From Candidatus Fermentibacterota bacterium (GTDB lineage Bacteria; JAFGKV01), in NCBI GenBank assembly GCA_030620115.1, contig JAUXFG010000019.1, forward strand, positions 1 to 37,842: 37,842 bases of DNA, written 5' to 3'. Position numbers and translations under genes: made by a program. Positions 33,266 to 37,534 of the stretch are shown piece by piece (position 1 is the stretch's first letter; each line of letters opens with the position of its first letter). Under the pieces are notes generated by a model. The model worked only from the letters and a program-made list of their open reading frames with translations. It was not told the origin of the DNA and did not search any database.

Positions 33266-33307
33266 TTGACGTCTCATTATGACCATGGTAACATGACTAT
33301 GGTCATA
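33266..33307 (+). promoter_or_regulatory. Promoter with overlapping inverted-repeat operator of the Phd/VapC module
   Basis: A -35 box TTGACG (33266-33271) and -10 box TAACAT (33289-33294) are separated by 17 bases. A perfect 9-base inverted repeat, TATGACCAT (33278-33286) and ATGGTCATA (33299-33307), overlaps the spacer and the -10 flank. Autoregulation by an antitoxin binding such a palindrome is the rule for Phd/YefM modules. The antitoxin start is at 33341. Confidence 0.75.
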
Positions 33308-33340: not shown

Positions 33341-33619
33341 ATGGAGAATCTGATTTCCAAATCGAAGTTCAAGGCCCGCGCCCTGCAGTACTTCCGGTTC
33401 GTGGAAAAGACCAGCAAGCCATTGGTGATCACTGATCATGGGAAACCAACGCTCAAGATCATCCCCTATGACTCTACCCCTGAGGACATCCTGCAACGCT
33501 TGCGGGGGTCGGTCGTGAAATACGCTGAGCCTACCGAACCTGTTGGCCTGGACGAGTGGAATGTTCTAGCCCGGACTTCTCACCGGCTTTCGAAGCGAAA
33601 TGGCCGAGATGGTTCTTGA
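33341..33619 (+). CDS. Phd/YefM-type antitoxin with element-encoded C-terminus
   Basis: The 92-residue protein is a Phd/YefM-like antitoxin: SKSKFKARALQYFRFVEKTS, KPLVITDHGKPTLKIIPYD, then a toxin-binding helix region PTEPVGLDEWNVL. The last 17 or so residues (ARTSHRLSKRNGRDGS) come from element A, which begins at 33566. The native protein probably ended just after DEWNVL. The ATG at 33341 is chosen because the promoter's transcript would start near 33301, although an in-frame ATG exists at 33266. DNA-binding residues are intact; toxin binding may be weakened. The partner is the PIN protein at 33752. Confidence 0.85.
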   Translation: MENLISKSKFKARALQYFRFVEKTSKPLVITDHGKPTLKIIPYDSTPEDILQRLRGSVVKYAEPTEPVGLDEWNVLARTSHRLSKRNGRDGS

Positions 33620-33750
33620 TGCGAGGCTTGCGACTGAAGACCCCGCAGGCGTATCCTCTGCGATACGTCGAGGAGGCTGATGGAGCGTAACGAAGCAGGC
33701 AGTGCCTTATCGGCTATTGCAGCCGAATGTTGGTGAGAAGTTCGGGTTAG
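33566..33750 (+). mobile_element. Element A, copy 1 (MITE-like, 185 bp)
   Basis: The left end CTAGCCCGGACTTCTCACCG and the right end, read in reverse complement, CTAACCCGAACTTCTCACCA, match at 17 of 20 positions. The interior has a conserved core (GAGATGGTTCT, GCGACTGA, GCAGGCGTATCCTCTG, GATACGTCGAGGA, GATGGAGCGTAACG) shared with the inverted copy at 37151-37337. Read as protein both copies give MVL-ARLATE--AGVSS-IRRG. No transposase is encoded. It separates the Phd and VapC genes. Confidence 0.8.
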
Positions 33751-33751
33751 G

Positions 33752-34147
33752 ATGATAGTACTCGATACACATGCATGGGTCTGGTGGATTGGCGATCCTC
33801 GCCGGCTCTCGCAGGCCGCACACCAGTCTATCGATGAGGCCTCGAAACAGGATGGCATCTATGTGTCCTCCATGAGCACATGGGAGGTGGCCATGCTTGT
33901 CAAGAAGGGACGGCTTCAACTGACCATGAATGTCGCGGATTGGATCGCTCAGTCAGCTTTGCTACCATCGCTGCACTTCGTCCCCGTGGACAACAGCCTC
34001 GCCCTCAGATCTGTCCATCTACCGGATTCTCTTTCTCCGGATCCCGTTGATCGAATCATCGTGGCCACTGCAATCAAGCTCGACGCACCGCTTGTCACGA
34101 AAGACAAACGGATCAGAGCATCCGATGTGGTAGCGACTATTTGGTAA
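33752..34147 (+). CDS. PIN-domain (VapC-like) toxin
   Basis: This 131-residue PIN-domain ribonuclease is complete. The metal-binding acids are visible: D5 in MIVLDTHAWVWW, E in STWEVAML, and D residues in DPVDRIIVATAIK and VTKDKRI. The family pairs with Phd/YefM-type antitoxins. Such genes usually overlap their antitoxin; here element A pushes the toxin about 130 bases beyond the (already extended) antitoxin stop. The sequence TAGGATG at the element's end may include the native antitoxin stop. Only AGG precedes the ATG, so translation may be weak. Confidence 0.88.
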   Translation: MIVLDTHAWVWWIGDPRRLSQAAHQSIDEASKQDGIYVSSMSTWEVAMLVKKGRLQLTMNVADWIAQSALLPSLHFVPVDNSLALRSVHLPDSLSPDPVDRIIVATAIKLDAPLVTKDKRIRASDVVATIW

Positions 34148-34518: not shown

Positions 34519-34884
34519 ATGCCTGAATTGCAGCAAAGATCGAGCGCGCGATCAGCGATTCCCTCTCCGGAGCATCTCCCATCCGACATTGATCGTCTTC
34601 CTGAAGACGCAGCCTGCTTGTTCCCGGAATACGTTTTCGAGACCATGGATGTGGACCGCCACAAGGGAGTGATCATAGAGCGGGTGCTGGAGCGGGGCAG
34701 CTGGCAGCAGACACGTTGGTTGTTTGCTCGCTATGGAGAGAATTGTGTGGCCGAATGGGTACAGCGACATGGGTTTCGACTTTTGTCGAAGCGATCGTTC
34801 GCCCTATGGCGGCTGGCGCTGGGGATACAAGACTATGTTGCCCCGGAGTGGGCAGTTGAAGCGAAGAGAGCTGAGGCATGGTAA
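34519..34884 (+). CDS. DUF6922-like antitoxin-position protein
   Basis: This 121-residue protein carries the pattern FPEYVFETMDVDRHKGVIIERVLERGS...RWLFARYGENCVAEWVQRHGFRLLSKRSFALWRLAL (about 35-110), which I recognise as the DUF6922-type small protein commonly encoded before AbiEii-like nucleotidyltransferases. It overlaps the next gene by 7 bases. It is likely the antitoxin or partner of that toxin; this is inferred from position. The N-terminal 30 residues are not conserved. Confidence 0.7.
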   Translation: MPELQQRSSARSAIPSPEHLPSDIDRLPEDAACLFPEYVFETMDVDRHKGVIIERVLERGSWQQTRWLFARYGENCVAEWVQRHGFRLLSKRSFALWRLALGIQDYVAPEWAVEAKRAEAW

Positions 34885-35534
34885 ACATGTCTGACTCGGC
34901 CATCACGGATGGCTGTCGGCAGGCACTAGGCTATCTCCGTACCGCAAAGTTCATCGGCGACTTCTATCTTGCAGGGGGGACCGCGCTGGCGCTGCAAATC
35001 GAGCATCGGGTATCAACCGATCTCGACTGGTTCAGCGCCACACGTCGCCTCCTGGCGCCGGAGCGTGACGAGATCTGTCTGGCGCTGGGCAAGAGCAGGG
35101 AGCTCGAAATCGTCTCTGAACAAGATGGAATGTTGTTTACGCGGCTCTTTGGCACGGACGTGAGTTTCATCCATCAGCCCCATCGTCTCCTGAAGCCAAC
35201 AGTCGAGTACCATGGGGTACGACTTGCTTCGCCGACAGATATCGGTCTCATGAAACTCGCCGCCATCAACTCACGAGGTTCACGACGCGACTTCATCGAT
35301 GTGTACTGCTTGCGCGACAGGATCGCACTCGACAGGTTGCTGGACCTTGCACTGATTAAGTATTCCGACCGTCCCAACTTCTTGGCTGTCGCGGCCCGCG
35401 CCCTCGCATACTTCGAGGATGCTGAGCAACAGCCAATGCCCATGCTGCTAGCCTCGGTCCGCTGGGACGATGTGCGGAACTACTGCGAAGCGGCTGCTCG
35501 CCACCTAGCGCGCCGCTCAAGCGGCTTGGATTGA
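34878..35534 (+). CDS. AbiEii/AbiGii-family nucleotidyltransferase toxin
   Basis: The protein (218 residues) belongs to the AbiEii/AbiGii toxin family of NTP-transferases, which act in phage defence or plasmid-type TA systems. The characteristic motif is YLAGGTALALQIEHRVSTDLDWF (about 33-55): GGT followed by the metal-binding DLD. A second conserved block is LASPTDIGLMKLAAINSRGSRRDFIDVY (about 115-142). It appears intact. The 7-base overlap with the DUF6922-like gene makes this a coherent two-gene module. The target RNA or nucleotide is unknown. Confidence 0.85.
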   Translation: MVNMSDSAITDGCRQALGYLRTAKFIGDFYLAGGTALALQIEHRVSTDLDWFSATRRLLAPERDEICLALGKSRELEIVSEQDGMLFTRLFGTDVSFIHQPHRLLKPTVEYHGVRLASPTDIGLMKLAAINSRGSRRDFIDVYCLRDRIALDRLLDLALIKYSDRPNFLAVAARALAYFEDAEQQPMPMLLASVRWDDVRNYCEAAARHLARRSSGLD

Positions 35535-35662: not shown

Positions 35663-35734
35663 AGGGCTTGCGCAAGAATAAGCTGCATCGAGTCCCGCGT
35701 ACTGCGCGGGATGAAGTTATTTCTGCGCGAACCC

Positions 35735-35735
<1 letters not shown>
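35663..35735. mobile_element. Element B, short copy
   Basis: The left end AGGGCTTGCGCAAGAATAA (35663-35681) and right end TTATTTCTGCGCGAACCCT (35717-35735) are imperfect inverted repeats around a small hairpin TCCCGCG/CGCGGGA. Its right end directly abuts the element-A end at 35735. Confidence 0.6.
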
Positions 35736-36133
<398 letters not shown>

Positions 36134-37137: not shown

Positions 37138-37534
37138 AACGAAGCGCTGGCCAGCCCGCACTTCTCACCAACTCCCTACTACAACGGCCGATATGGTCCT
37201 GTCTACCGCGTTACGCTCCATCGGCCATCCTCGACGTATCTCAGAGGATACGCCTGCTGATTCCTCAGTCGCAAGCCTTGCAGCCAGAACCATCTCCCCC
37301 GTTTCGCAACAGGAGGCGGTGAGAAATGCGGGCCAGGGTTCGCAGACGAGAATCTCCGCGCAGCAGAGCTGCTCCTCGAAAGCGAACTCCACAACCCTTG
37401 CCTTCAGAACATCCAAGTATCCTCTTGGCAGTGCGCTGCCCGATTTCGAGCCCACCAGAGAAACTTGTGAGCGATGTATCGATATCGCAAAGCACGTTCG
37501 CGATTCCGCAATGAAGTTCTTGGACGAATCATAG
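37127..37534 (+). pseudogene. HEPN toxin pseudogene split by element A
   Basis: Three pieces are visible. The start MRDETKRW (37127-37150) is followed by element A (37151-37337). Then, in another frame, comes FADENLRAAELLLESELHNP followed by CLQNIQ (37339-37419), a standard HEPN N-terminal region. After a further lesion, back in the first frame, the C-terminal YPLGSALPDFEPTRETCERC ... IDIAKHVRDSAMKFLDES ends at 37534. Removing 185 bases would put KRW and FADENL in one frame. The middle of the HEPN fold, where the RNase Rx4-6H motif is expected, is missing, so the toxin is dead. Confidence 0.8.
37151..37337 (-). mobile_element. Element A, copy 2 (inverted, about 187 bp)
   Basis: The ends are CCAGCCCGCACTTCTCACC (37151-37169) and GGTGAGAAATGCGGGCCAGG (37318-37337), imperfect inverted repeats. 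In reverse complement the interior matches copy 1 through the core GAGATGGTTCT ... GCGACTGA ... GCAGGCGTATCCTCTGAGAT ... GATGGAGCGTAACG. The encoded peptide EMVLAARLATEESAGVSSEI is open here to a stop at 37165, longer than in copy 1. Confidence 0.8.

Follow-up and report, generated by a model that had tools for sequence, protein, structure and literature searches.

ERIC (also called RU-1) and YPAL (RU-2) are short hairpin repeats of enterobacteria that occur in many copies, mostly between genes (PMC2759123, PMC2229807). ERIC has TA ends and is accompanied by a TA duplication (PMC2759123, PMC2229807), and both repeats are known to extend the C-termini of proteins (PMC2759123). TA ends, stem-loop transcripts and in-frame fusions are traits of MITEs in general (PMC2229807, PMC10969869). 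The Correia (NEMIS) elements of Neisseria also have TA ends, together with end repeats of about 24 bp, and form a hairpin in mRNA, with RNase III cutting their transcripts (PMC10969869, PMC2229807); a conserved interior shared across phyla is not described for them in these two papers.

Here we describe a 179-bp element of this general kind, inserted in a phd-vapC toxin-antitoxin operon, in a 37,842-nucleotide stretch of a Candidatus Fermentibacterota genome (hereafter the window; this genome and most of the others compared are draft assemblies). Like ERIC, it is a short hairpin with a TA duplication, but ERIC is 127 bp long, and a single ERIC locus from E. coli, its ends eroded, obtained 5.5 bits with our first covariance model (R1) and 4.2 bits with the second (R2) when tried as a member of the family. 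A likeness to ERIC seen by eye (GCAAGGC / GAGCG.AACGCAGC) was unsupported by the models. YPAL, of about 168 bp, was compared with the element by description only, and the Correia elements measure 107 or 155 bp and have a different end sequence. REPINs, the RAYT repeats, are likewise non-autonomous, hairpin-forming and present in high copy number, but the family described here is longer and lacks the GTAG/CGTC tag at the foot of the stem, where it has YTAR (CTAG, TTAG or CTAA) instead; the tagged stem with a RAYT partner that defines REPINs was not found, nor was any clear association with Y1 transposases. The IS1380 elements that we found have ends like TA-GCCCGG/C-ATTTCTCACC, which they have in common with the MITE. 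The MITE, however, is without a transposase and has an interior not derived from the IS ends observed, and IS1380-family elements duplicate 4-5 bp of their target, as opposed to the TA seen here. What is distinctive is a nearly fixed length and fold across many bacterial families, combined with IS1380-type ends.

The features of the locus, in window coordinates, are these:

33266-33294, forward strand: promoter-like site TTGACG-17-TAACAT, 9 of 12 matches by consensus comparison only
33278-33289 and 33296-33307: operator-like inverted repeat TATGACCATGGT / ACTATGGTCATA, 12 nt, overlapping the promoter-like site
33341-33619, forward strand: phd antitoxin gene (PF02604, 3e-07), encoding 76 native and 16 element-encoded residues
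33567-33568: left-hand TA of the target duplication, in the site C-TA-G
33569-33747, forward strand: hairpin MITE of 179 bp (R1, 185.9 bits, model positions 1-179)
33569-33592, forward strand: left terminal inverted repeat GCCCGGACTTCTCACCGGCTTTCG
33648-33669, forward strand: conserved terminal stem-loop GGCGTATC-CTCTGC-GATACGTC, then conserved GAGGA
33724-33747, forward strand: right terminal inverted repeat, which as RNA pairs with the left repeat
33748-33749: right-hand TA of the target duplication
33752-34147, forward strand: vapC toxin gene with an intact PIN domain (PF01850, 8e-19)

A Phd/YefM antitoxin followed by a PIN-domain toxin identifies this locus, at the level of sequence, as a phd-vapC type II toxin-antitoxin module, and the promoter-like site and operator-like repeat are both intact, as the initial annotation had stated for 33266-33307. 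The same annotation had described a MITE-like element of 185 bp with inverted-repeat ends that agree at 17 of 20 positions. We obtained the same count for the outer 20 positions, and the longest ungapped arms (33566-33592 and 33724-33750) matched at 22 of 27 positions (81%). With 24-nt ends, no transposase gene and no long ORF the element is indeed a MITE, but the element proper measures 179 bp, the earlier figure being larger because its borders took in the TA on either side and, beyond these, one flanking C and one flanking G. Directly downstream of vapC, at 34519-35534, a DUF6922 gene overlaps an AbiEii-like nucleotidyltransferase gene, and the two may form another toxin-antitoxin-like pair. 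A lone left end of the element (35734-35752) follows the AbiEii-like gene.

Searching the window's own genome with the 185 bp gave at least 49 DNA matches (best 40 of 369 candidates scored), and the end sequence matched 499 times against 2 for a reversed-pattern control, so the copy described here is one of a very abundant MITE family. Model R1 matched 141 of 150 scored candidates from the same genome. In 55 paired copies the flank consensus outside the CCCGG start was Y-TA-R, and 34 of them had a TA at each end. Immediately inward of the TA, the base was mostly G or A on the left and mostly C or T on the right. The number of copies in which this terminal base formed a Watson-Crick pair with its counterpart at the other end exceeded chance (38 versus 26.9 expected, P 0.0004), and the base therefore belongs to the element. 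Together the flank and terminal-base statistics place the element at 33569-33747 with a TA duplication; a 4-bp YTAR duplication was rejected, its positions 1 and 4 being no better matched than permuted pairs. Paired-end elements in about 400 kb of this genome fell into size classes of about 47-83, 140, 161-165, 177-182, 189-201 and 233 bp. By a crude ORF method that called 78% of the sequence coding, 33 of 35 paired-end elements were intergenic, so a copy that rewrites the end of a gene is unusual; this method does not call phd a gene, and the phd copy is therefore among the 33.

Other copies vary in form. The window holds a second full-length copy on the reverse strand (37154-37333), flanked by CA/CA instead of TA/TA, and overlapping and truncated copies at 144-323, near an SDR-family gene at the window start. 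Four compound copies (L026, L028, L030 and L043) have one 179-bp element nested at the identical place inside another, and the compound repeat itself seems to have spread. Longer elements (L019, L022, L025, L038, L040, L055 and others) contain short palindromes (such as GTCCCGCGTCGGACGCGGGA, TCCGCCAGCTGGCGGA) at varying points of their hairpin, a pattern that would fit insertion of another, very small repeat. Mini-hairpins of 48-83 bp, with the ends of the element and without its conserved interior, were seen at L056 14448, L002 81, L057 and L023 34. Some elements lie flush with a predicted gene end (L064 13569, L065 13652, L058 1725 and L050 15534), and at gene ends TA plus the first base of the element can make a TAG or TAA stop.

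At the phd-vapC junction, Phd keeps its native residues 1-76 and has lost the last (Gly), with its stop now at 33617-33619. The loss of the normal end had been recognised before, together with a gain of about 17 residues; the real gain is 16 (ARTSHRLSKRNGRDGS). The displacement of the toxin from its antitoxin, also part of the initial annotation, is evident, since the vapC start is now 132 bp past the phd stop, its ATG beginning 3 bases past the right TA copy. In silico excision of 33569-33749 gave a 77-aa Phd (...PVGLDEWNVLG*) with a TGA that overlaps the VapC ATG (ATGA). Only a 2-bp duplication yields this restored frame, which supports the TA duplication.

A VapC relative is encoded at 80 loci of other genomes, and we examined the upstream junction in 51 of them. 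The exact 4-bp overlap of phd and vapC was present in 40, many with a 77-aa Phd, and at several of the remaining junctions, missed by a simple ORF picker, the same overlap was recognisable by eye. Model searches of these loci detected no element between phd and vapC, the sole match being weak (24.7 bits, at L129) and located 3' of vapC. Empty sites in relatives had been proposed as a check of the insertion, and the same DNA in every homologous operon as an argument against it; the homologous operons typically show the 4-bp overlap, none has a detected element, and their overlapping junction supports the reading of a MITE inside a phd-vapC operon. The data thus establish the insertion and its borders, the state of the site before insertion, and the copy number of the element. 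Insertion in phd-vapC as such is ordinary.

Beyond this genome, R1 was run on 386 genomes sampled across the domain, with a cut-off of E <= 1e-5 on rough E-values, and matched 30 of them (28 genera), most matches being full length with spans of 173-180 nt. In members from other genomes the end sequences are partly different and the internal loops are the same. A genome outside the window's family (G037), whose relatives of the element were first noticed via a common 35-nt core, had 43 model matches, mostly of 178-180 nt and of near-identical architecture, and R2 gave 34, 60 and 6 copies in three genomes from the phylum of another genome, G274. Within the window's own family, only a few weak matches were found in G001 and no model matches in G002. 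In G388 many matches were limited to model positions 31-149, nearly all measuring about 121 nt, and seem to combine the conserved interior with different ends; shorter relatives of 157-162 nt with quite different ends (for example GTCCTGTTCGTAAATACTG) were seen at L203, L205 and L206 in other genomes. No Rfam 15 family scored above its gathering threshold (the best, Twister-P5, reached 14.6 of 37.6 bits), searches of viral and plasmid collections did not find the element itself, and the literature searched reported neither a MITE within phd-vapC nor one whose fold is conserved across phyla. The earlier remark that no described element has these ends stands, with neither an Rfam family nor a describing paper found, and the conserved hairpin family of about 178 nt appears to be new.

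The predicted fold of the full 179 nt is one rod-like hairpin (-88.5 kcal/mol, z -7.2). Its internal loops are common across members: TTCGTCGCGAGG follows the left end, CGCAGCAGAA precedes the right end and GGAGGCGTA..TACGTCGAGGA is at the tip. When elements of the window's genome and G037 were aligned jointly, 28 of 48 pairs changed on both sides (197 cells versus 65 shuffled); for the window's genome alone the both-side changes were 36 versus 15 shuffled. In a set of 27 diverse members, compensatory changes were seen at 48 of the 49 consensus pairs. Both-side cells numbered 326, compared with 105 after shuffling and no more than 101 after sliding, in a test using sequences from which the structure was itself derived. 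A requirement for symmetric ends by itself gives covariation in the ends of the element, and the interior helices and conserved unpaired motifs are the stronger part of the evidence for the fold, which is kept in unrelated bacteria while most of the sequence changes. Two further ideas were discarded. A conserved peptide (TPQAYPLRYVE) as the cause of core conservation did not hold, given stops in many copies and conservation that tracks base pairs, and the excess of G-U over A-C (118 versus 31 cells in A4), although suggestive, was set aside as proof of RNA function, being biased by the choice of structure.

It is plausible, if short of probable, that the 178-nt rod and its loops are functional, as RNA or as single-stranded or cruciform DNA, and form a mobile structured nucleic acid found across phyla, a cargo conserved on IS1380-type ends that differ between genomes. 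The hairpin could instead be a by-product of palindromic MITE biology, arising from the symmetric requirement of the transposase or from arm-to-arm conversion, with no selected function as RNA or single-stranded DNA, an explanation that we take seriously while stopping short of calling it the probable one. Transposition requires matching end repeats, and since mini-hairpins (48-83 bp) that share these ends occur, an element can persist as a repeat without the interior. Two observations oppose this by-product explanation: the loop motifs are conserved and strand-specific (with R1, L002 scores 200 bits versus 59 on the opposite strand), and the length stays at 173-180 nt in unrelated genomes.

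For the operon, we consider it likely that a 179-bp MITE mobilised by IS1380 inserted at the CTAG at the end of phd and uncoupled vapC from phd. An IS1380-family transposase acting in trans would have moved the non-autonomous transposon, whose autonomous IS1380 partner would carry CCCGGACTTCTCACC ends, into the TA of the CTAG at the 3' end of phd, with duplication of the TA. As the operon now stands, the 16-residue extension takes the place of the original Phd stop, and the 4-bp overlap, which normally couples translation of the toxin to that of the antitoxin, is broken. In the mRNA, a long stem with its foot reaching the VapC start would mask the start codon, and ribosomes finishing the extended phd could open this stem by holding its left arm; the VapC ATG is predicted to be unpaired with a probability of 0.24 when the hairpin forms, 0.89 with the left arm open and 0.65 at the empty site. 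RNase III may also cut the hairpin, by analogy with the processing of Correia-element transcripts (PMC10969869). Toxin output would then fall relative to antitoxin, possibly conditional on phd translation, and the modelled folds suggest less VapC per Phd. That the extended Phd is instead a selected functional fusion, in a module that has been re-tuned and not damaged, seems unlikely to us: the promoter, the operator, the PIN domain and Phd up to Leu76 are all intact, and C-terminal extensions by ERIC and YPAL are documented (PMC2759123), but the extension is merely the frame that the element offers, and the near-exclusive intergenic placement of elements in this genome (33 of 35) makes genic effects look tolerated, not favoured.

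As for the enzyme involved, a transposase gene sharing these ends, which the initial annotation had suggested looking for, was found in the IS1380 family, in other genomes and not in the window's own assembly. In a comparison of the degenerate end pattern with viral contigs, CTAGCCCGGATTTCTCACCAG adjoined a 453-aa IS1380-family transposase ORF (L223; PF13701 5e-155, NF033539 5.6e-124). The search for IS1380 transposases covered 44 genomes, 21 bearing the element and 23 others. G031 has a complete IS (L347, 1252-2886) with 23-nt ends TAGCCCGGATATTTCATAA and TA flanks, G274 has an intact IS1380 gene with the same end as its own MITEs, and G358, G206 and G350 have IS1380 remnants beside ends that resemble their own MITEs. 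All these IS1380 ends, those of the one complete IS included, come from genomes other than the window's, and their likeness to the ends of the window copy is partial. IS1380 genes were present in 6 of the 21 element bearers versus 2 of the 23 others, a weak association by presence only. Neither the window's own assembly (G000) nor G037 yielded one, nor did most of the other genomes that bear the element; the draft assembly G000 may have lost a repeated IS. The conserved interior of the element is absent from IS1380 ends, and searches of the window's genome for PF01609, PF13358 and PF13701 gave no locus with these ends. Since the presence association is weak and G000 lacks an IS1380 gene, we only infer, from the ends, that an IS1380 transposase mobilised the window copy. 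A different mover, whether RAYT/Y1 as for REPINs or an enzyme of IS630 or IS5/IS4 type, is decidedly improbable: TA and CTAG targets are typical of IS630, the hairpin shape recalls REPINs and Y1 genes are present in the window's genome, but PF13358 is absent from G000 and G037, the PF01609 loci of G000 lack such ends, the presence of Y1 genes shows no clear link to that of the element (17 of 20 bearers, 12 of 20 non-bearers), and IS1380 genes are flanked by matching ends.

MITEs are usually regarded as deleted insertion sequences with a drifting interior. The present family, which is absent from Rfam, keeps its interior fold and its loop motifs across 30 of the sampled genomes (28 genera) as most of the sequence changes. 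It thus becomes testable whether a selected structured RNA or hairpin is part of some bacterial MITEs. The finding also points to IS1380 as the mobilising transposase family for a very abundant repeat, and the locus is a clean case of a toxin uncoupled from its antitoxin by a repeat, in which homologues show what the ancestral state was.
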